Below the pieces are notes generated by a model. It did no database searches and had not been told where the DNA came from. It saw nothing but the letters and a program-made list of their open reading frames with translations. Below, piece by piece: positions 1 to 28,711 of a stretch of DNA of 64,000 bases (positions are counted from its first letter, which is position 1; each line of letters opens with the position of its first letter). Origin of the DNA: Lampris incognitus (taxonomy: Eukaryota > Chordata > Actinopteri > Lampriformes > Lampridae). Location: the NCBI RefSeq assembly GCF_029633865.1, contig NC_079214.1, forward strand, positions 25,965,000-26,028,999, written 5' to 3'. The translations under genes were made by a program, and so were the position numbers.

Positions 1-166
1 AAGTTTGATGTAAAAAAATCTTATTTCAAATACAAATCATTATTTCTAACCTTGTCAATGTCTTGACTCTATTTTCTATTCATTTCACAACATATGGTGG
101 TGAATAAGTGTGACTTTTCATGGAAAACACAAAATTGTTTGGGTGATCCCAAACTTTTGAACGGTA

Positions 167-169
<3 letters not shown>
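1..169. mobile_element. End of a palindromic Tc1 derivative (truncated by window edge)
   Basis: The sequence matches the outer end of the two complete 1197-bp palindromic elements at 7373-8569 and 13991-15187. It finishes with the same terminal motif (ACTTTTGAACGGTAGTG) and is followed by TA, the Tc1 target dinucleotide. At the position near the tip where the two arms of the complete copies differ (TG versus CG), this end has TG, like the right arm of the copy at 7373. Because the rest lies outside the window, it could instead be the end of a full-length parent element. Confidence 0.85.
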
Positions 170-3103: not shown

Positions 3104-3144
3104 GAGGAGTGTTCACTGGTCAAGGTTCAGGAAGATAACCAGAG
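3104..3144 (+). other. Possible 5' untranslated exon of the RNF128-like gene
   Basis: A pyrimidine-rich tract ending CCTCCAG precedes this stretch and a consensus donor (GAG|GTGAGT) follows it, about 200 bases upstream of the intronless coding region. That arrangement would fit a small noncoding exon spliced to a second exon carrying the start codon. I cannot identify the matching acceptor before 3350 with confidence, so this is a weak inference. Confidence 0.2.
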
Positions 3145-3349
3145 GTGAGTGGCTGACGCAAAGCCTGTGTTGTGTTACCAAAGTCTCATATCAGATTACT
3201 GTAGACAGCAGGTTGGGTGAAACTTAAGCCCTATTCAGATCGCTGTGACTCGAAGAACCAGGAACTGAAACTAAAGAGACTTCCCTGATAGACTAAAGAA
3301 GCTTTCCCAGACCACTTCATGTTGTTGTTTTGAAGAGAAGAGTGTTGCC

Positions 3350-4444
3350 ATGGGTAAGAAGACTGACCAGTGTTTGGTGCTTCTGTTGTTTCTGTCTGGG
3401 CTTGTCCAGTGTACGACTGCAATGATTTTCTGGACTGCCTTGGTGGATATAAGCTACTTCGACAACCAGATCAACGACACTGTCAACCGATATTGTGAAT
3501 GTGGGGTGTATGGTCGCAACTCTCCCCTGGAGGGGGCCTCAGGCATTGTAACACTGCCGAGCCACGACCCCAAAGGCTGTGGCCAAGATGTCGTCTACGG
3601 CCGTAACTCCAGCTCACCGCCCTGGATAGCCTTGGTAAAGAGGGGCAATTGCAGCTTTAGTGAGAAGATCATTGCTGCTGAGCGGAAGGGGGCAGCTGGC
3701 GTGGTGATTTACAATGTAGATGGCACTGGGAACAACACTACTCACATGACACACTCTGAGGTAACTGATATTGTGGCTATAATGATTGGAAACGACCATG
3801 GCATGGAAATCGTCAAATTGGTAAAGACTGGACTAGAGGTTACCATGGTTATTGAGGTAGGCAGTGCCCATGGATTATGGATGGATGCCTACTGGCTGTA
3901 CTTCCTCTCAATTGCCTTCTTCATTGTGACAGCAGCATCCATTGCCTACTTTGTGTTCATCTCTGCCCATCGTATTCACAGCATGCGAATGCAGAGGTGT
4001 GCTGAGAGAAAGCTGAAATCTGAGGCTAAGAAGGCAATTGGTCAGCTGCAGGTGTGCACGCTGAAGAGGGGGGACGCGGAGGTGGGGTCTGACTCTTACA
4101 TGTGCGCTGTGTGTATTGACGCCTACAAGGCAGGCGAGGTGGTGACAGTGCTCACATGTGGACATATCTTCCACAAGGCTTGCATTGAGCCCTGGCTGCT
4201 AGAGAAGAGGACCTGCCCCATGTGCAAGTGTGATATCTTGAAGGCCTTGGGGGTTGAGGAGGAGAGGAAGGACGAGAGAGCCTTGACGTCATCACCAGCG
4301 GCGGAAACTGTTATCACAGTGTCGGGGGGAGATCCAATGTATGAGGTTCCTCTGACTGACTCCCCAGCCCCTGACCCAGAGAGACATCAGCATCGCTATG
4401 ACAACAGAGCCTTTGAGGGAGACTCTCACTTTGCTACAGCGTAG
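3350..4444 (+). CDS. rnf128: RNF128/GRAIL-type RING-H2 E3 ubiquitin ligase, intronless (364 aa)
   Basis: Goliath-family ligases sit in endosomal and other endomembranes and ubiquitinate membrane cargo through a cytosolic RING. The protein starts with a signal peptide (about residues 1-24). A protease-associated domain (about 60-170) holds possible N-glycosylation sites at N42, N86, N100 and N128/129. One membrane helix follows (about 181-204). The RING-H2 zinc ligands are all present: C252, C255, C270, H272, H275, C278, C289 and C292. The motif after the RING (CKCDILKALG) and the GVYGRNSPLE segment near the N-terminus are typical of RNF128/GREUL1. The whole protein is in one uninterrupted frame, whereas mammalian RNF128 is split among several exons. 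This may therefore be a functional retrocopy or a fish-specific intronless paralogue. The ATG lies in GCCATGG, a good Kozak context. The family is certain; which RNF128-like paralogue it is remains open. Confidence 0.92.
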   Translation: MGKKTDQCLVLLLFLSGLVQCTTAMIFWTALVDISYFDNQINDTVNRYCECGVYGRNSPLEGASGIVTLPSHDPKGCGQDVVYGRNSSSPPWIALVKRGNCSFSEKIIAAERKGAAGVVIYNVDGTGNNTTHMTHSEVTDIVAIMIGNDHGMEIVKLVKTGLEVTMVIEVGSAHGLWMDAYWLYFLSIAFFIVTAASIAYFVFISAHRIHSMRMQRCAERKLKSEAKKAIGQLQVCTLKRGDAEVGSDSYMCAVCIDAYKAGEVVTVLTCGHIFHKACIEPWLLEKRTCPMCKCDILKALGVEEERKDERALTSSPAAETVITVSGGDPMYEVPLTDSPAPDPERHQHRYDNRAFEGDSHFATA

Positions 4445-5436: not shown

Positions 5437-7011
5437 AAGACAGTATAGCCAGATCTCACCACGTCAAAAGTCTACACATGTCATCAAACAAGCCACCATA
5501 GGCCTGTTAGTGAGAAACACTTACTCGACTTTCCACAGCCTCTTAAGTTTTGCACGAGCTGAATTTCAGTATAAATTTGTGACTCTCAACAATTTCGCAA
5601 TTTACTTTACCATGTGTTCCAACAGACTTTAATTCTTTTTTGACCTAAAAGTGTCAGGATGCATGTATGAACACACCCAACAAGGCATTACTGGAAATGC
5701 TGGATAGTGCACATTGCACAGGGAGGACTGACATATGACACCCAGGGGGCGGGTACTCTTTATAAATTTGATTCATAGACACAATACCGTCATAAATCTT
5801 GAGGGATGATAGGTGTTTTCCAGTCATACTCACTCAAGAAAGACAGAACATGCAATAAATGCTCCATATCAGTCATGTGAAATCAGTCTACTCAAAGTAC
5901 CTTGTACCATGGGATATTACCTTTATCTTAGTGCCTTCTGTTGTTATAGTTGTTGTTGATGTAAAATCAAATTATTATGATATTGATATACCGAATTGTC
6001 AATCATCAAAATTATTTCTGAGTAGGTAATGGATTGTCTATTTCCAGATAAAAGATGTTTCTCTCCTTAAACATTCAACTCTGAAAAGTACATGTCCACA
6101 TGTTTTTATTGTTGACCAGGTCTTCCACTCTTCTTTTTTTTTAATACTGGAGGTCATTTTCTAAGGCCTACCTCTGTCACGGACGACTTTACACCACAAA
6201 AAATACAGGTGTGTGTAAGAAGTAAAACGACCTCTTGGTAACTTCATTTTTTTCCCCTCTGGTAGTGCTTTTCTGATTATGATGGGGTCTTGGTATAGTT
6301 TTTCTCTATTGAATCATTTTTTTCTTCACTGTATTTACAGATTCTTGGAGTCTTGAAGTCTTAAATTGTTCTGTAAAGATGAGTTTGACTTTGCTGCATT
6401 AAATCACATTGATGCTTATTAGAACACATTAAATCCCTCAAAATGAGGAAAACTTAATATGCATCCATGTTTGAAAGAGCAGTGCTTATGTGCCAGTGTT
6501 AACGTGTGCCTTTGCATGTGCGTGTGTGTGTGTCCATCAGTTTGCTTCTCAGAGTCATCACATGTCACTGCACATGACATTGTCACGTGCATGCAGGTCT
6601 ATGCACATATGTGTGGGCCATATCAGGCAAAGATAACTGGATTTTAAGTTGTGTCTCAAAGGAAGAGTGATGCAATGAAATATTTGTACGAATCCGAGTG
6701 ATGGAGACTGTAATTACTTCTGCACAGCAGCGAGTCAGACCTCTCACACAAAGAGCTTTGAGCTGGATAACCATCAGCATAGTGAGGCTGTAGTGGAGCC
6801 AGACCCAAGGCAAAGTGCGGACATGCAGCTACGTGTGGCTAAGGACAGAACTACTGACTGCTCCCCTTCACCCATCCCCACCATGAGATGGGGGTGTTTA
6901 AAAAGAAAATAACAGGAACTAGCACACCAGTGTGGTGTCGAGTGATATGGAGAATATTATTATCATGGTAACCACAGGGAATTATACACTGTCAATATAG
7001 TATAGCACAAT
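5437..7011. other. Intergenic stretch without a recognisable gene
   Basis: The region is AT-rich and mostly unique-looking. It holds a short GT-rich patch (about 6500-6535) and no convincing open frame. An AATAAA near 5853 might serve the RNF128-like transcript. Nothing else is supportable. Confidence 0.4.
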
Positions 7012-7360: not shown

Positions 7361-7751
7361 TATATATATATACACTACCGTTCAAAAGTTTGGGATCACC
7401 CAAACAATTTCGTGTTTTCCATGAAAAGTCACACTTATTCACCACCATATGTTGTGAAATGAATAGAAAATAGAGTCAAGACATTGACAAGGTTAGAAAT
7501 AATGATTTGTATTTGAAATAAGATTTTTTTTACATCAAACTTTGCTTTCGTCAAAGAATCCTCCATTTGCAGCAATTACAGCATTGCAGACCTTTGGCAT
7601 TCTAGCTGTTAATTTGTTGAGGTAATCTGGAGAAATTGCACCCCACACTTCCAGAAGCAGCTCCCACAAGTTGGATTGGTTGGATGGGCACTTCTTTGAG
7701 CAGATTGAGTTTCTGGAGCATCACATTTGTGGGGTCAATTAAACGCTCAAA

Positions 7752-7946
7752 ATGGCCAGAAAAAGAGAACTTTCATCTGAAACTCGACAGTCTATTCTTG
7801 TTCTTAGAAATGAAGGCTATTCCATGCGAGAAATTGCTAAGAAATTGAAGATTTCCTACACCGGTGTGTACTACTCCCTTCAGAGGACAGCACAAACAGG
7901 CTCTAACAGGTACTATTTAATGAAGATGCCAGTTGGGGACCTGTGA
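7752..7946 (+). pseudogene. Tc1 transposase N-terminal fragment (64 aa), copy A short frame
   Basis: Residues 1-52 equal the first part of the convergent frame at 7903-8190, then 12 unrelated residues are read from the antisense spacer before a stop. It includes the first helix-turn-helix only. Confidence 0.75.
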
Positions 7947-8190
7947 GGCGTCTGTTTCTCAAACTAGAGACTCTAATGTACTTATCTTCTTGCTCAGTTG
8001 TGCAACGCGGCCTCCCACTTCTTTTTCTACTCTGGTTAGAGCCTGTTTGTGGTGTCCTCTGAAGGGAGTAGTACACACCGGTGTAGGAAATCTTCAATTT
8101 CTTAGCAATTTCTCGCATGGAATAGCCTTCATTTCTAAGAACAAGAATAGACTGTCGAGTTTCAGATGAAAGTTCTCTTTTTCTGGCCAT
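7903..8190 (-). pseudogene. Tc1 transposase N-terminal DNA-binding fragment (95 aa), copy A long frame
   Basis: The frame begins MARKRELSSETRQSIL and includes a helix-turn-helix of the paired-like PAI type (about residues 5-47, GYSMREIAKKLKISY). A basic GRPR AT-hook-like linker (about 57-62) and the start of the second DNA-binding subdomain (about 72-90) follow. It stops where the spacer meets the opposite arm, so all of the DDE catalytic domain is missing. If expressed, it could bind transposon ends without cutting them; that is inference. Confidence 0.8.
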
Positions 8191-8578
8191 TTTGAGCGTT
8201 TAATTGACCCCACAAATGTGATGCTCCAGAAACTCAATCTGCTCAAAGAAGTGCCCATCCAACCAATCCAACTTGTGGGAGCTGCTTCTGGAAGCGTGGG
8301 GTGCAATTTCTCCAGATTACCTCAACAAATTAACAGCTAGAATGCCAAAGGTCTGCAATGCTGTAATTGCTGCAAATGGAGGATTCTTTGACGAAAGCAA
8401 AGTTTGATGTAAAAAAAATCTTATTTCAAATACAAATCATTATTTCTAACCTTGTCAATGTCTTGACTCTATTTTCTATTCATTTCACAACATATGGTGG
8501 TGAATAAGTGTGACTTTTCATGGAAAACACAAAATTGTTTGGGTGATCCCAAACTTTTGAACGGTAATGTATATATAA

Positions 8579-8873
8579 AACTTCGTTAAAAGAAACACTC
8601 AATGGTAGGAAAAGTGCTCAACAGATAAGGAGCAAAATAATCCAGTGAGTCAAATAAATTCTTTAATAGACAGTACAAGACTGTTTCATGCCATAAGCAA
8701 TTCTCAGCTGTCAATAAAGCTATACGGGAAATAATTTTATTGACAGCTGAGGATTGCTTGTGGCAGGAAACAGGCTTGTACTGTCTCATAAAGAATTTAC
8801 TTGAATCACTGGATTATTTCGCTCCTTATCTGTTAAGCACTTTTCCTACAGTTGAGTTTCTTTTAACAAAGTT
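8579..8873. mobile_element. Palindromic MITE (foldback, 17-nt loop)
   Basis: Two arms of about 138 bp (8579-8718 and 8736-8873) are reverse complements with scattered mismatches, around a 17-nt loop (8719-8735). The tips are AACTTCGTTAAAAGAAAC and the complement of AACTTTGTTAAAAGAAAC. There is no coding capacity. I cannot assign a superfamily because no clear target duplication is visible; the element abuts other transposons on both sides. Confidence 0.8.
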
Positions 8874-9009: not shown

Positions 9010-12000
9010 AACACAGCCACTGAGGATGTACAAGCCAGTGCATTCTTAGTGCCAGTCCCAAGCCCGGATAAATGGGGAGGGTTGCATCAGGAAGGGCATC
9101 TGGCGTAAAATCTTTGCCAAATCAAATATGCGGATCATAAATGAGATTTCCATACTGGATCGGTCGAGGACCGGGTTACCAACTACCTTTCTGACCTTTC
9201 TGATTAAATGTACTGTTAACCAGCAGGGTGCTGGTGGAAACTATGCTACTGTTGGACGAAGGAGAAGGAGAGGGGGAAGGCATGTCCAGAGGCAGCGAGA
9301 CAGGAGGAAGGGTAGGAGTGTGGAGGTGAGAGTTGGAACTTTGAATGTTGGCACTATGATTGGTAAAGGGAGAGAGCTGGCTGATAGGATGGAAATAAGA
9401 AAGGTAGGCATACTGTGTGCAAAAGCCCAGGTGGAAGGAGAGTAAGGCCAGGAGTGTTGGAGGTTGGTTCAAACTCTTCTACCATGGTGCGAATGGGGGA
9501 GAAATGGGGTAGGGGTAATTCTGAAGGAAGAGTATGTCAAACGTGTGCTGGAGGTGAAGAGAGTGTCAGACAGAGTGATGAGTATGAAATTGGAAATTGA
9601 AGGTGTATTGCTGAATGTTATCAGCGCATATGTCTCACAAGTTGGTTGGGAGATGGAAGAGAAAGAAGAATGCTGAAGTGAGTTGGATGACGTGGCAGAG
9701 TGGATACCCAAGGAGGAGAGAGTGGTGATTGGAGCAGACTTCAGTGGACATGTTGGTGAAGGGAACAGAGGTGATGAGGAGGTGATGGGTAGGTATGGTG
9801 TCAAGGAGAGGAATGTGGAAGGACAGATGGTGGTGGATTTTGCGAAAAGGATGGAAATGGCTGTGGTGAATACATAGTTCAAGAAGAGGGAGGTACACAG
9901 GGTGACGTACAAGAGTGGAGGAAAGGGCACACAGGTGGACTATATCTTATGTAGAAGGCACGATCTATAAGGGATTGGAGACTGCAAGGTGGTGACACGG
10001 GAGAATGTAGCTAGGCAGCATCGCATGGTGGTCTGTAGGATGACTTTGGAGACCGAGAAGAGGAAGCGAGTGAAGGCAGATCCGAAGATCAAATGGTGGA
10101 AGTTGAAGAAGGAAGACTGTTGTGTGGAGTTCAAGGTGGAGTTAAGACAGGCACTGGGTGGTAGTGAAGAGTTGCTGGATGGCTGGGCAACCTGACAGAG
10201 ACAGCTAGGAAGGTACTTGGTGTGTCATCAGGACAGAGAAAGGAAGACAAGGAGACTTGGTGGTGGAACGAGGAAGTACAGCAAAGTATACAGAGGAAGA
10301 GGTTGGCAAAGAAGAAGTGGGATAGCCAGAGAGATGAAGAAAGTAGACAGGGGTACAAGGAGATGCAGCGTAAAGCAAAGAGAGAGGTGGCAAAGGCAAA
10401 GTAAAAGGCATATGGTGAGTTGCATGACAGGTTAGACACTAAGGAAGGAGAAAGGGACTTGTACTGATTGGCTAGACAGAGGGACCGAGCTGCGAAGGAT
10501 GTGCAGCAAGTTAGGGCGATCAAGGACAGAGATGGAAATGTGCTGACAAACAAGGAGAGTGTGCTGAGAAGGTGGAAGGAGTACTTTGAGGGGCTGATGA
10601 ATAAAGAAAATGAGAGAGAGAGAAGGTTGGATGATGTAGGGATAGTGAATCAGGAAGTGCAGTGGATTAGCAAGGAGGAAGTGAGGGCAGCTATGAAGAG
10701 GATGAAGAGTGGAAAGGCAGTTGGTCCTGATGACATACCTGTGGAGGAATGGAGATGTTTAGGAGAGATGGCAGTGGGGTTTTTAAGTAGATTGTTTACC
10801 ACAATCCTGGAACGTGAGAGGATGCCTGAGGAGTGGAGAAGACGCATACTGGTACCGATTATCAAGAACAAGGGCAATGTGCAGAACTGTATCAACTACA
10901 GAGGTATAAAGTTGATCAGCCACAGCATGAAGATTTGGGAAAGAGTAATAGAAGCTAGGTTAAGAGGAGAGGTGATGATTAGCGAGCAGCAGTATGGTTT
11001 CATGCCATGAAAGAGCACCACAGATGTGATGTTTGCTTTGAGAATGTTGATTGAGAAGTATAGAGAAGGCCAGAAGGAGTTACATTGTGTCTTTGTAGAT
11101 TTAGAGAAACCATATCTCAGGGTGCTGAGAGAGGAGGTGTGGTGTTGTATGAGGAAGTCGGGAGTTGCAGAGAAGTATGTAGGAGTGGTGCAGGATATAT
11201 ATGAGGGAAGTGTGACAGTGGTGAGGTGTGCGGTTGGAATGACAGATGGGTTCAAGGTGGAGGTGGAATTACACTAAGGATCGGCTCTGAGCCCTTTCTT
11301 GTTTGCAATGGTGATGGACAGGTTGACGGACAAGATCAGGCAGGAGTCTCCATGGATGATGTTGTTTGCAGATGACATTGTGATCTGTAGCGAGAGTAGG
11401 GTGCAGGTTGAGGAGAGCCTGGAGAGGTGGAGGTATGCACTGGAGACAAGAGGAATGAAAGTCAGTAGGAGTAAGACGGAATACCTATGCGTGACTGAGA
11501 GGGAGGACAGTGGAATGGTCAGGATGCAAGGAGTGGAGATGACAAAGGCATATGAGTTTAAATACTTGGGGTCAACTGTCCAAAGTAACGGGGAGTGCAG
11601 GAAAGAGGTGAAGAAGAGAGTGCAGGCAGGGTGGAGTGGGTGGAGAAGAGTGTCAGGAGTGATTTGCGACAGAAAGGTACCAGCAAGAGTTAAAGGGAAT
11701 GTTTACAAGATGGTTGTGAGACCAGCTATGTTATATGGTTTGGAGACAGGGGCACTGACAAAAAGACAGGAGGCGGAGCTGGAGGTAGCAGAGTTGAAGA
11801 TGCTAAGATTTTCACTGGGAGCGACGAAGAAGGATAGGATTAGGAATGATTATATTAGAGGGACAGCTCAGGTTGGACGGTTTGGAGACAAAGCAAGAGA
11901 GGCAAGATTGAGATGGCTTGGACATGTGTGGAGGAGAGATGCTGGGTATATTAGGAGAAGGATGCTGAATATGGAGCTGCCAGGGGAGAGGAAAAAAGGA

Positions 12001-12152
12001 AGGCCAAAGAGGAGGTTTTTGGATGTGGTGAGGGAAGACATGCAGGTGGCTGGTGTGACAGAGGAAGATGCAGAAGACAGGAAGAAATGGAAATGGATGA
12101 TCCGCTGTGGCGACCCCTAACGGGAGCAGCCGAAATAGTAGTAGTAGTAGTA
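9010..12152 (+). mobile_element. Near full-length non-LTR retrotransposon (RTE-like), decayed
   Basis: The element is 3143 bp, has an exact 17-bp target duplication and a short (TAG)n 3' tail. It encodes an apurinic-type endonuclease followed by reverse transcriptase. The clade assignment (RTE-like) rests on this short single-ORF layout and the trinucleotide tail, and is inferred. Frameshifts and stops split the open frame into at least eight pieces, so it is not active. Confidence 0.9.
9321..12120 (+). pseudogene. Endonuclease/reverse transcriptase ORF, broken
   Basis: Endonuclease motifs are LNVGTMIGKGRELAD (about 9340), [17 protein letters not shown] (about 9735-9785) and TQVDYILCRR (about 9930). 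Reverse transcriptase motifs are SGKAVGPDDIPVEEW (about 10708), NYRGIKLISHSMKIWER (about 10895), LHCVFVDLEK (about 11080) and the catalytic FADDIVIC box (about 11365). The C-terminal part (11299-12120) is the longest intact piece, ending in IRCGDP before TAA. Breaks include stops near 9673, 9877, 10195, 10404, 11008 and 11275 and a frame change near 9440. Several codons differ from the usual family pattern through CpG-type decay. Confidence 0.85.
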
Positions 12153-12339: not shown

Positions 12340-13222
12340 GAAGGTCATTGCTGAAAGGGCTGGCTGTTCACAGAGTGCTGTATCAAAACATATCCATGGA
12401 AAGTTGACTGGAAGGGAAAAGTGTGGTAGGAAAAGGTGCACAAGCAACAGGGATGACCGCAGCCTCAAGAGGATTGTCAAGCAACGCCAATTCAAGAACT
12501 TGGGGGAGCTTCACAAGGAGTGGACTGAGGCTGGAGTCAGTGCATCAAGAGCCACCACACACAGACGTACCCAGGAACTGGGCTACAAGTGTCGCATTGC
12601 TAGTGTCAAGCCACTCCTGAACTAGAGACAACGACAGAAGCATCTTACCTGGGCTAAGGAGAAAAATAACTGGACCATTGGTCAGTGGTCCAAAGTCTTC
12701 TTTTCAGATGAAAGTAAATGTTGCATTTCATTTGGAAATCAAGGTCCCAGAGTCTGGAGGAAGAGTGGAGAGGCACAGAATCCAAGTTGCTTGAAGTCCG
12801 GTGTGAAGTTTCCACAGTCAGTGAAGATTTGGAGTGCCATGTCATCTGTTGGTGTTGGTCCATTGTGTTTTATCAAGCCCAGAGTCAACGTAGCTGTCTA
12901 CCAGGAGCACTTCATGCTTCCGTCTGCTGACAAGCTTTATGGAGATGCTGATTTCATTTTCCAGCAGGACTTGACACCTGCCCACAATGCCAAAACTACC
13001 ATGGTACTACTGTGCTTGATTGGCCAGCCAACTCGCTTGACCTGAACCATTGTCAAGAGGAAGATGAGAGACTCCAGACCCAACAATGCAGACGAGCTGA
13101 AGGCTGCTATCAAAGCAACCTGGGCTTCCATAACACCCCAGCAGTGCCACAGGCTGATTGCCTCCATGCCACGACGCATTGATGCAGTAATTCATGCAAA
13201 AGGAACCCCGACCAAGTACTGA
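12340..13222 (+). pseudogene. Tc1-like transposase, broken
   Basis: Pieces in order are a helix-turn-helix (AERAGCSQSAVSKHIHGK, about 12353-12405), the second DNA-binding part (to 12624, ending in a stop after KPLLN), the first catalytic aspartate in FFSDESK (about 12700-12720), QQDLTPAHNAKTT with the second aspartate (about 12961-13000), and a C-terminal PRRIDAVIHAKG region (about 13170-13205). The segment that would hold the third acidic residue is deleted around 13042-13050. Stops and frame changes rule out activity. Confidence 0.8.
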
Positions 13223-13890: not shown

Positions 13891-14360
13891 ACGTATATAT
13901 ATAGCGTTTTTTTCCAAAACCGTCAATGGTGTTGAGTGCTCGACTAATGAGGAGCGGAATATATATATATACATGAGAAGTAAAGATATACACTACCGTT
14001 CAAAAGTTTGGGATCACCCAAACAATTTTGTGTTTTCCATGAAAAGTCACACTTATTCACCACCATATGTTGTGAAATGAATAGAAAATAGAGTCAAGAC
14101 ATTGACAAGGTTAGAAATAATGATTTGTATTTGAAATAAGATTTTTTTTACATCAAACTTTGCTTTCGTCAAAGAATCCTCCATTTGCAGCAATTACAGC
14201 ATTGCAGACCTTTGGCATTCTAGCTGTTAATTTGTTGAGGTAATCTGGAGAAATTGCACCCCACGCTTCCAGAAGCAGCTCCCACAAGTTGGATTGGTTG
14301 GATGGGCACTTCTTTGAGCAGATTGAGTTTCTGGAGCATCACATTTGTGGGGTCAATTAA

Positions 14361-14657
14361 ATGCTCAAAATGGCCAGAAAAAGAGAACTTTCATCTGAAA
14401 CTCGACAGTCTATTCTTGTTCTTAGAAATGAAGGCTATTCCATGCGAGAAATTGCTAAGAAATTGAGGATTTCCTACACCGGTGTGTACTACTCCCTTCA
14501 GAGGACAGCACAAACAGACTCTAACCAGAGTAGAAAAAGAAGTGGGAGGCCGCGTTGCACAACTGAGCAAGAAGATAAGTACATTAGAGTCTCTAGTTTG
14601 AGAAACAGACGCCTCACAGGTCCCCAACTGGCATCTTCATTAAATAGTACCTGTTAG
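14361..14657 (+). pseudogene. Tc1 transposase N-terminal fragment (98 aa), copy B long frame
   Basis: Equivalent to the minus-strand frame of copy A, with an upstream in-frame ATG adding three residues (the family start is at 14370). It holds the first helix-turn-helix, the GRPR linker and part of the second subdomain, then ends at LNSTC where the opposite arm begins. Differences from copy A include K36R (LRISY). Confidence 0.8.
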
Positions 14658-14808
14658 AGCCTGTTTGTGCTGTCCTCTGAAGGGAGTAGTACACACCGGT
14701 GTAGGAAATCTTCAATTTCTTAGCAATTTCTCGCATGGAATAGCCTTCATTTCTAAGAACAAGAATAGACTGTCGAGTTTCAGATGAAAGTTCTCTTTTT
14801 CTGGCCAT
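14614..14808 (-). pseudogene. Tc1 transposase N-terminal fragment (64 aa), copy B short frame
   Basis: The translated sequence is identical to the short frame of copy A (7752-7946), including the 12 spacer-encoded residues at the end. This supports recent copying of the same palindrome. Confidence 0.75.
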
Positions 14809-15189
14809 TTTGAGCGTTTAATTGACCCCACAAATGTGATGCTCCAGAAACTCAATCTGCTCAAAGAAGTGCCCATCCAACCAATCCAACTTGTGGGAGC
14901 TGCTTCTGGAAGTGTGGGGTGCAATTTCTCCAGATTACCTCAACAAATTAACAGCTAGAATGCCAAAGGTCTGCAATGCTGTAATTGCTGCAAATGGAGG
15001 ATTCTTTGACGAAAGCAAAGTTTGATGTAAAAAAAATCTTATTTCAAATACAAATCATTATTTCTAACCTTGTCAATGTCTTGACTCTATTTTCTATTCA
15101 TTTCACAACATATGGTGGTGAATAAGTGTGACTTTTCATGGAAAATACGAAATTGTTTGGGTGATCCCAAACTTTTGAACGGTAGTGTA

Positions 15190-26114: not shown

Positions 26115-27410
<1,296 letters not shown>

Positions 27411-27464
<54 letters not shown>

Positions 27465-27470
27465 ATAAAT
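27411..27470. repeat. (GT)n microsatellite between two Tc1-like elements
   Basis: About 22 GT units then TATGTGTATGTA. Confidence 0.95.
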
Positions 27471-27498
27471 AAATTGTGTGTGTGAATTGAAAAATATA

Positions 27499-28711
27499 CA
27501 CTCACTGGCCACTTTATTAGGTACACCTTGCTAGTACTGGGTTGGACCCCCTTTTGCCTTCAGAACTGCCTTAATCCGTCATGGCATAGATTCAACAAGG
27601 TACTGGAAACATTCCTCAGAGAGTTTGGTCCATATTGACATGATAGCATCACGCAGTTGCTGCAGATTTGTCGGCTGCACATCCATGATGCGAATCTCCC
27701 GGTCCACCACATCCCAAAGGTGCTCTATTGGATTGAGATCTGGTGACTGTGGAGGCCATTTGAGTACAGTGAACTCATTGTCATGTTCAAGAAACCAGTC
27801 TGAGATGATTCGAGCTTTATGACATGGCGCGTTATCCTGCTGGAAGTAGCCATCAGAAGATGGGAACACTGTGGTCATAAAGGGATGGACATGGTCAGCA
27901 ACAATACTCGGGTAGGCTGTGGCGTTGACACGATGCTCAATTGGTACTAAGGGGCCCAAAGTGTGCCAAGAAAATATCCCCCACACCATTACACCACCAC
28001 CACCACCAGCCTGAACCGTTGATACAAGGCAGGATGGATCCATGCTTTCATGTTGTTGACACCAAATTCTGACCCTACCATCCGAATTTCGCAGCAGAAA
28101 TCGAGACTCATCAGACCAGGCAACGTTTTTCCAATCTTCTATTGTCCAATTTTGGGGAGCCTGTGCCTCAGTTTCCTGTTCTTAGCTGACAGGAGTGGCA
28201 CCCGGTGTGGTCTTCTGCTGCTGTAGCCCATCTGCCTCAAGGTTCGACGTGTTGTGCGTTCAGAGATGCTCTTCTGCATACCTCGATTGTAATGAGTGGT
28301 TATTTGAGTTACTGTTGCCTTTCTATCAGCTCGAACCAGTCTGGCCATTCTCCTCTGACCTCTGGCATCAACAAGGCATTTTCGCCCACAGAACTGCCGC
28401 TCACTGGATATTTTCTCTTTTTCGGACCATTCTCTGTAAACCCTAGAGATGCTTGTGCGTGAAAATCCCAGTAGATCAGCAATTTCTGAAATACTCAGAC
28501 CAGCCCGTCTGGCACCAACAACCATGCCACGTTCAAAGTCACTTAAATCACCTTTCTTCCCCATTCTGATGCTCGGTTTGAACTGCAGCAGATCGTCTTG
28601 ACCATGTCTACATGCCTAAATGCATTGAGTTGCTGCCATGTGATTGGCTGATTAGAAATTTGCGTTAATGAGCAGTTGGACAGGTGTGCCTAATAAAGTG
28701 GCCGGTGAGTG
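27499..28711 (-). mobile_element. Nearly intact Tc1-like element (1213 bp)
   Basis: TA flanks both ends (27497-27498 and 28712-28713). The terminal repeats are CACTCACTGGCCACTTTATT and its inverted partner near 28692-28711 (one mismatch within the first 10 bases). The internal transposase has a single frameshift. The 88-bp gap to the previous Tc1-like element is mainly GT repeat. Confidence 0.92.
27579..28564 (-). pseudogene. Tc1/mariner transposase with one frameshift
   Basis: The N-terminal part (28564-28139, 141 codons) has a helix-turn-helix (GLSISEIADLLGFSRTSISR) and a second DNA-binding region. A frame change near 28150 separates it from the catalytic part, whose SDES motif is readable at about 28101-28118. 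The downstream piece (28043-27579) has QQDNAPCH with the second aspartate and SPDLNPIEHLW with the glutamate. I count 36 residues between those two, unlike the 34 of classic Tc1, so it fits DD36E-type families. All three acidic residues are present. The frameshift alone prevents expression of a full protein. Confidence 0.85.

Follow-up and report, generated by a model that had tools for sequence, protein, structure and literature searches.

A palindromic Tc1 parasite with two right ends, found with its parent and a probable half-way form in the genome of Lampris incognitus

How does a transposon come to consist of mirrored parts of its own parent, and does such an element restrain the family that it came from? 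These questions are raised by a 1197-bp element in a 64,000-nucleotide stretch of Lampris incognitus DNA (contig NC_079214.1, positions 25,965,000–26,028,999), which was analysed as a whole and is called the window below. An initial annotation, made from the letters alone, had proposed a palindromic Tc1 derivative with a doubled transposase N-terminus, and its anatomy agreed in part with ours. An inverted repeat occupies positions 7365–7907 and 8035–8577 with 127 nt between, and the two arms of the element proper are 99.25% identical over 535 bp. Transposase codons 1–52 were found in each of the two arms, and the frame of 95 residues, with its helix-turn-helix (HTH) and GRPR linker, was found on the minus strand (Table 1). 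The annotation missed both a second complete copy and the end of a third family member; the terminal 22-mer was matched five times in the window (≤3 mismatches), versus no match in 100 shuffles, and of the three matches outside the main element two bound the second copy and one marks the partial copy.

Table 1. Members of the palindromic family in the window and the parts of the main element
Feature	Position in window	Strand	Basis
Partial third family member: right-end sequence, truncated at the window edge	1..169	+	22-mer and alignment
Palindromic Tc1 element, complete, 1197 bp	7373..8569		TA at 7371-7372 and 8570-8571
Parent right end (parent 1295-1618: last 53 transposase codons, stop, 3'UTR, TIR)	7373..7696	-	Parent alignment; codons at 7538-7696, minus
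Arm 1: parent 351-568 (62 bp of 5'UTR and codons 1-52)	7691..7907	+	Parent alignment
95-aa ORF: 94 transposase residues and Cys, stop created by the junction	7903..8190	-	ORF list
Spacer, 127 bp: unexplained base 7908 (J2) and parent codons 53-94	7908..8034	-	Inverted-repeat and parent alignment
Parent 351-694: 5'UTR and codons 1-94, through the spacer	7909..8251	-	Parent alignment
Second copy of parent right end (parent 1295-1618)	8246..8569	+	Parent alignment
Second 1197-bp copy, spacer oriented oppositely, 99.5% identical, TA-flanked	13991..15187		22-mer and alignment

A full-length parent, on which the annotation had counted, is present in the genome at 1618 bp, and alignment to it gave the origin of all but one base of the palindrome. 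In each arm, the right end of the parent, made up of the last 53 transposase codons, the 3'UTR and the terminal inverted repeat (TIR), is fused to the 5'UTR and codons 1–52. Read in the orientation of the 95-residue ORF, the palindrome runs through inverted parent 1618–1295, parent 351–694, inverted parent 568–351 and parent 1295–1618, so that right-end sequence of the parent bounds it on both sides. The left end has been lost: the parent's first 350 bp are missing, save for the 27-bp TIR common to both ends. The outer 324 bp of each arm is antisense to the adjoining 5' piece. In all, the palindrome contains sequence from 668 of the 1618 parent bases, including 444 coding bases; the arms alone account for a 535-bp part. 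The junction of the right-end piece with the 5' piece (J1) has a 3-bp microhomology, CTT, and the spacer–arm junction (J2) may be read in the alignment either as one unexplained base or as 1 bp of microhomology with a CpG change after it.

The proposal of a palindromic Tc1 derivative with a doubled N-terminus thus stands, but not the idea that a DNA-binding domain is its sole transposase content, the outer 324 bp being the parent's 3' end. An arm composed of a terminal region and DNA-binding domain only was ruled out by the same alignment. We concluded that the element is a palindromic, two-right-ended Tc1 parasite, of a kind already known and in a new variant. It is a non-autonomous derivative: it has no transposase, its copies are uniform, and its ends are common with those of an autonomous element.

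That autonomous element is abundant. Sequence continuing beyond codon 94 was matched at 3104 places (1546+1558) and the left-type 5'UTR at 2990 (1494+1496), both with ≤2 mismatches and with no match to the reversed controls. We read four parents, picked, as were the first two of the half-way forms described below, from exact matches on contig C1. All four were 1618 bp long and had TIRs of 27 bp, with one mismatch in L083, and the 347-residue frame was open in each; L082 lacks the stop, and its frame extends by 14 residues. The transposase carries the Pfam domains HTH_Tnp_Tc3_2 and DDE_3, both above cut-off, and its only match among PDB sequences (E up to 0.01) was the Sleeping Beauty catalytic domain (E 9.1e-54). 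By eye, its catalytic triad is D154, D244 and E283, with 38 residues between the last two (DD38E). The parent shares with the DD38E/Intruder family, as described in PMC7731502, the DD38E triad, a single ORF, a TA target and a recent burst, and its 1618 bp and 347 aa fall inside the family's range of 1.5–1.7 kb and 341–379 aa, as do the roughly 1586 bp of the half-way form. That description also includes short- and long-TIR members alike, as here. Judged by triad, size and TA target, the parent and its derivatives are best classed as Tc1/mariner elements of the DD38E/Intruder type. A simple fuzzy match gave no convincing inner direct repeat in either parent end.

A profile search with DDE_3 yielded no full parent among the best 30 loci (150 scored of 25,700 candidates). 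Those loci were distant transposases, seven of them matching the 95-aa fragment at 26–32%, and one (L043) was a right-end piece of the present family. The C-terminal ORF of the right-end piece had a 35% match in a Tc1-like transposase locus (L059).

The annotation's expectation of further copies with identical junctions was borne out on a large scale in the 1.48 Gb searched. J2 was matched at 5834 places (2906+2928) and J1 at 11441 (5727+5714), about two per palindrome, both at ≤2 mismatches and with no match to the reversed patterns; many of the 100 J1 matches listed were facing pairs 548 bp apart. Among the best 30 loci for a one-arm query (40 scored, 218 candidates), one of which was the window's own element, the palindrome's spacer junction was present in all 30 and the palindrome was complete in 27, two of the complete copies being 1196 bp long and the rest 1197. 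The three left out as incomplete were L007, L021 and L023. TA flanked all 28 complete copies in the set that includes both window copies, a set that is query-biased because it was ranked by identity to one arm.

A second set was chosen by position: along C1, 20 of the first 22 loci on the J2 list, each with an exact J2 match, the two others being skipped as close to a chosen locus. TA duplications flanked all 19 complete elements (1186–1198 bp) in this set; the remaining locus, L070, has an internal deletion and was left out of the divergence and selection counts. Pairwise divergence among the 19 palindromes averaged 6.06 substitutions per 1197 bp, about 0.5%, and among the four parents 10.3 per 1618 bp, or 0.64%. 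Parent and palindrome are similarly diverged and therefore spread in about the same period, a rough estimate with only four parents.

Two site pairs that distinguish the arms (39/1159 and 275/923) occur in matched and mismatched states among the copies, and in one of 47 copies (L011) both pairs are swapped relative to the spacer. The simplest reading of these states is that the spacer of L011 was inverted between its arms and that conversion between arms took place in others, and several source copies could be a partial explanation. Some copies are damaged. One arm is lost near the centre in L007 and L021 (alignment to the consensus stops at 497 and 483, respectively), about 332–515 is deleted from L070 and about 673–937 from L090; these possibly represent the centre breaks typical of long palindromes. 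Two loci, L023 and L091, run into N at the element, and a parent and a palindrome are separated by 14 bp at L069.

A third form of the family combines features of the other two. At two loci in the part of C1 that the J1 list covers, L085 and L086, a J1 match lies 334 bp ahead of a parent-type match, in TA-flanked elements of 1586 bp. Both ends of this form (RR) are right-type, with near-identical TIRs of 324 bp that differ at a few positions within each element. Three further J1 matches without a J2 partner were read, and proved to be another RR (L089), the deleted palindrome L090, and L091. The three RR elements read (L085, L086 and L089; 1586, 1586 and 1585 bp) all had TA flanks and an open, full transposase gene. 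A DNA query spanning J1 and the parent gene gave at least four full-length matches on four contigs, L085 included, with 11 candidates scored. In the first 16.4 Mb of C1 we counted three RR elements versus 33 exact parent-type matches, two of which were RR; RR thus makes up roughly 8–9% of the copies that carry the gene, a figure with a wide margin of error.

Only RR elements that had been read out were counted. Eleven of the 100 parent-type matches listed had no left-type partner and were dropped as a count of RR, being subject to the same ordering effect as the converse case. There, 11 of the 100 left-type matches listed, all on the minus strand, had no parent-type partner in the list. Two of these that were read (L087 and L088) were ordinary parents over the stretch covered, and we took the missing partners as an effect of exact matches coming first; the shared strand is perhaps a listing effect also.

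We consider it likely that the palindrome is a non-autonomous DD38E Tc1 derivative that arose by end replacement followed by a fold-back of RR, and that was trans-mobilised by the parent's transposase. In the first step, an inverted copy of the right end would have replaced the parent's left end at the CTT microhomology, creating RR with its 324-bp TIRs and whole transposase gene. In the second, during later repair or replication, codon 94 of the copied strand would have folded back onto codon 52 within the transposase gene, and self-copying from this fold-back would have produced a palindrome whose loop is 127 bp long and whose two sides both finish in a right end. Both the order of the steps and the repair mechanism are inferred. 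In yeast, fold-back inversions via single-strand hairpins, including those with a large loop, are documented in PMC7467729. The microhomology at J2, at most 1 bp, argues against the fold-back step.

RR could instead be a recombinant of palindrome and parent and not a precursor; the sequences give no order. The fullest alternative of this sort is a single complex event, in which two template switches in an ordinary left–right parent gave the palindrome, and RR came later through recombination between palindrome and parent. Every piece of RR exists in the palindrome and the parent, RR is rarer than either, and the swapped site pairs of L011 suggest that arms do exchange, all of which is consistent with such a history. 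It requires more events at one time, however, and RR carries precisely the one junction that the palindrome needs. We regard the single event as unlikely, yet deserving serious consideration, and favour the two-step origin through RR.

Because the palindrome has no transposase, its spread after a two-step origin would have been in trans, with the parent's transposase moving it. Two copies of one preferred end, together with a shorter length, would make it a good substrate that outgrew its parent by about 2:1. The right end is probably the preferred end of the parent transposase, and the doubled preferred end and short length are most likely behind the palindrome's success. In PMC4505599, Mos1 with two right ends is reported to transpose 26 times better than with the natural pair, and having the preferred end on both sides is described as best for both Mos1 and Mboumar-9. 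The Intruder report (PMC7731502) describes donors with a consensus TIR, identical to the 3' TIR, that beat the natural pair, although the ends of that pair differ by only 2.4%. RR is rare despite having the palindrome's ends, and ends alone are therefore insufficient for the palindrome's success: shorter length, chance and timing must matter as well. The family is also a natural setting in which to test the finding, made in the laboratory, that a transposon performs better with its preferred end on both sides (PMC4505599).

The value of the family is that parent, half-way form and product occur together in one genome, are young, and have junctions readable to the base. The origin of long matching ends in short-TIR Tc1 elements, and that of palindromic non-autonomous elements, is usually guessed from end products. 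Here, because the parent and the half-way form are still present, the probable steps of the parasite's origin can be read directly.

The annotation had further suggested that the element acts as a brake on its parent family, by way of either RNA or protein. One premise held in the prediction: if transcribed, the palindrome would form a long hairpin RNA, with a predicted fold of a single long stem (MFE −1025 kcal/mol), and the family, with 535-bp inverted repeats in thousands of copies, could be an abundant natural source of long double-stranded RNA. The brake itself gained no support here, given an ORF that shows no constraint in the few changes counted, the loss of the parent's upstream region, and the similar youth of parent and palindrome.

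For the RNA route, a read-through hairpin with a 535-bp stem would be processed into small RNAs, and these would silence the transposase of the parent. The predicted fold and the parent bases covered by the palindrome both point this way. Effective RNAi from long double-stranded RNA is limited in vertebrate somatic cells, however, and the similar divergence of palindromes and parents gives no sign that the parent stopped first. The closest precedent is Mu killer of maize, for which such silencing was proposed and which has an identical plan; as described in PMC3440606, both of its TIRs come from the mudrA-side end, and two partial copies of mudrA form an inverted duplication. Mu killer is described there as a locus, whereas the palindrome here is known from sequence as thousands of dispersed copies. 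On balance we think an RNA brake improbable. We would call it distinctly doubtful that the palindrome is a self-spreading Mu killer, that is, a hairpin able to move throughout the genome and to silence the element it came from; if it were, every jump of the parasite would add a copy of the RNA brake, and the family would be self-limiting.

Truncated transposases of the KP-like type act as repressors, and a protein brake would work similarly, the 95-aa N-terminal fragment binding transposon ends in competition with the transposase. The fragment does retain the HTH and GRPR linker, and its ORF is open in 45 of the 47 complete copies, but an open ORF is expected in copies so young, and the changes in it fit neutrality. 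Across the 19 positional copies there were 6 nonsynonymous changes, 2 synonymous changes and 1 stop, against neutral weights of 790:294:56, in small numbers. There was no synonymous excess, and one stop and one frame-breaking deletion occurred among the 19, in numbers too small to rule out that a handful of source copies are under selection. The 28 query-biased copies had 15 nonsynonymous and 3 synonymous changes, some common to several copies. Set aside from these counts were 25 indel bases and 9 arm-diagnostic changes in the 19 copies, and 2 and 3, respectively, in the other 28. Moreover, the fragment ends at residue 95, inside the second subdomain (HTH_Tnp_Tc3_2 covers parent residues 71–141), and, apart from the TIR, the first 350 bp of the parent, where its promoter would be expected, are missing. 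We judge a protein brake very unlikely.

The weakest alternative, an artefact of assembly or mapping, draws on the difficulty of assembling palindromes and on the N runs at L023 and L091, and was ruled out for practical purposes by thousands of matches to the same junctions and by 47 complete copies bounded by TA at either end, many of which clearly differ in the sequence farther out.

Several known systems resemble parts of this family. Tc4 and Tc6 of C. elegans, in the Tc1 superfamily, and Angel of teleosts are non-autonomous and consist mostly of long inverted repeats, like the palindrome here. Tc4 and Tc6 are named in PMC4678618. In Drosophila, Bari comprises close relatives with TIRs of 28 bp or about 250 bp, some of the long TIRs being identical (PMC4877112), much as in parent and RR; the mechanism of origin of its perfectly matching ends is stated in that paper as still to be identified, whereas here both forms and the junction occur in one genome. 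The palindrome also resembles MITEs derived by internal deletion in being non-autonomous, uniform in length and TA-flanked, with the ends of an autonomous element. It differs from them in its 1197 bp and in that one end was replaced and the rest mirrored, with no simple deletion. The main text of PMC7731502 gave no match for a palindromic, MITE or non-autonomous Intruder member, and we found no palindromic Intruder element in a literature search of titles and abstract openings, a coverage outside which most subscription journals fall.

The terminal 22-mer was not found in viral contigs, and no Rfam family reached threshold. The window contains other repeats besides the palindromes. A different palindromic element, about 87% self-complementary over some 295 bp, begins ten bases past the main element (8579–8873). 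Judged by eye, frames at 9050–12120 resemble a LINE-type reverse transcriptase, and fragments at 12626–13045 and 26482–28615 resemble other Tc1/mariner transposases. A long open frame at 3275–4444 looks, again by eye, like a gene for a membrane-bound RING-finger protein.
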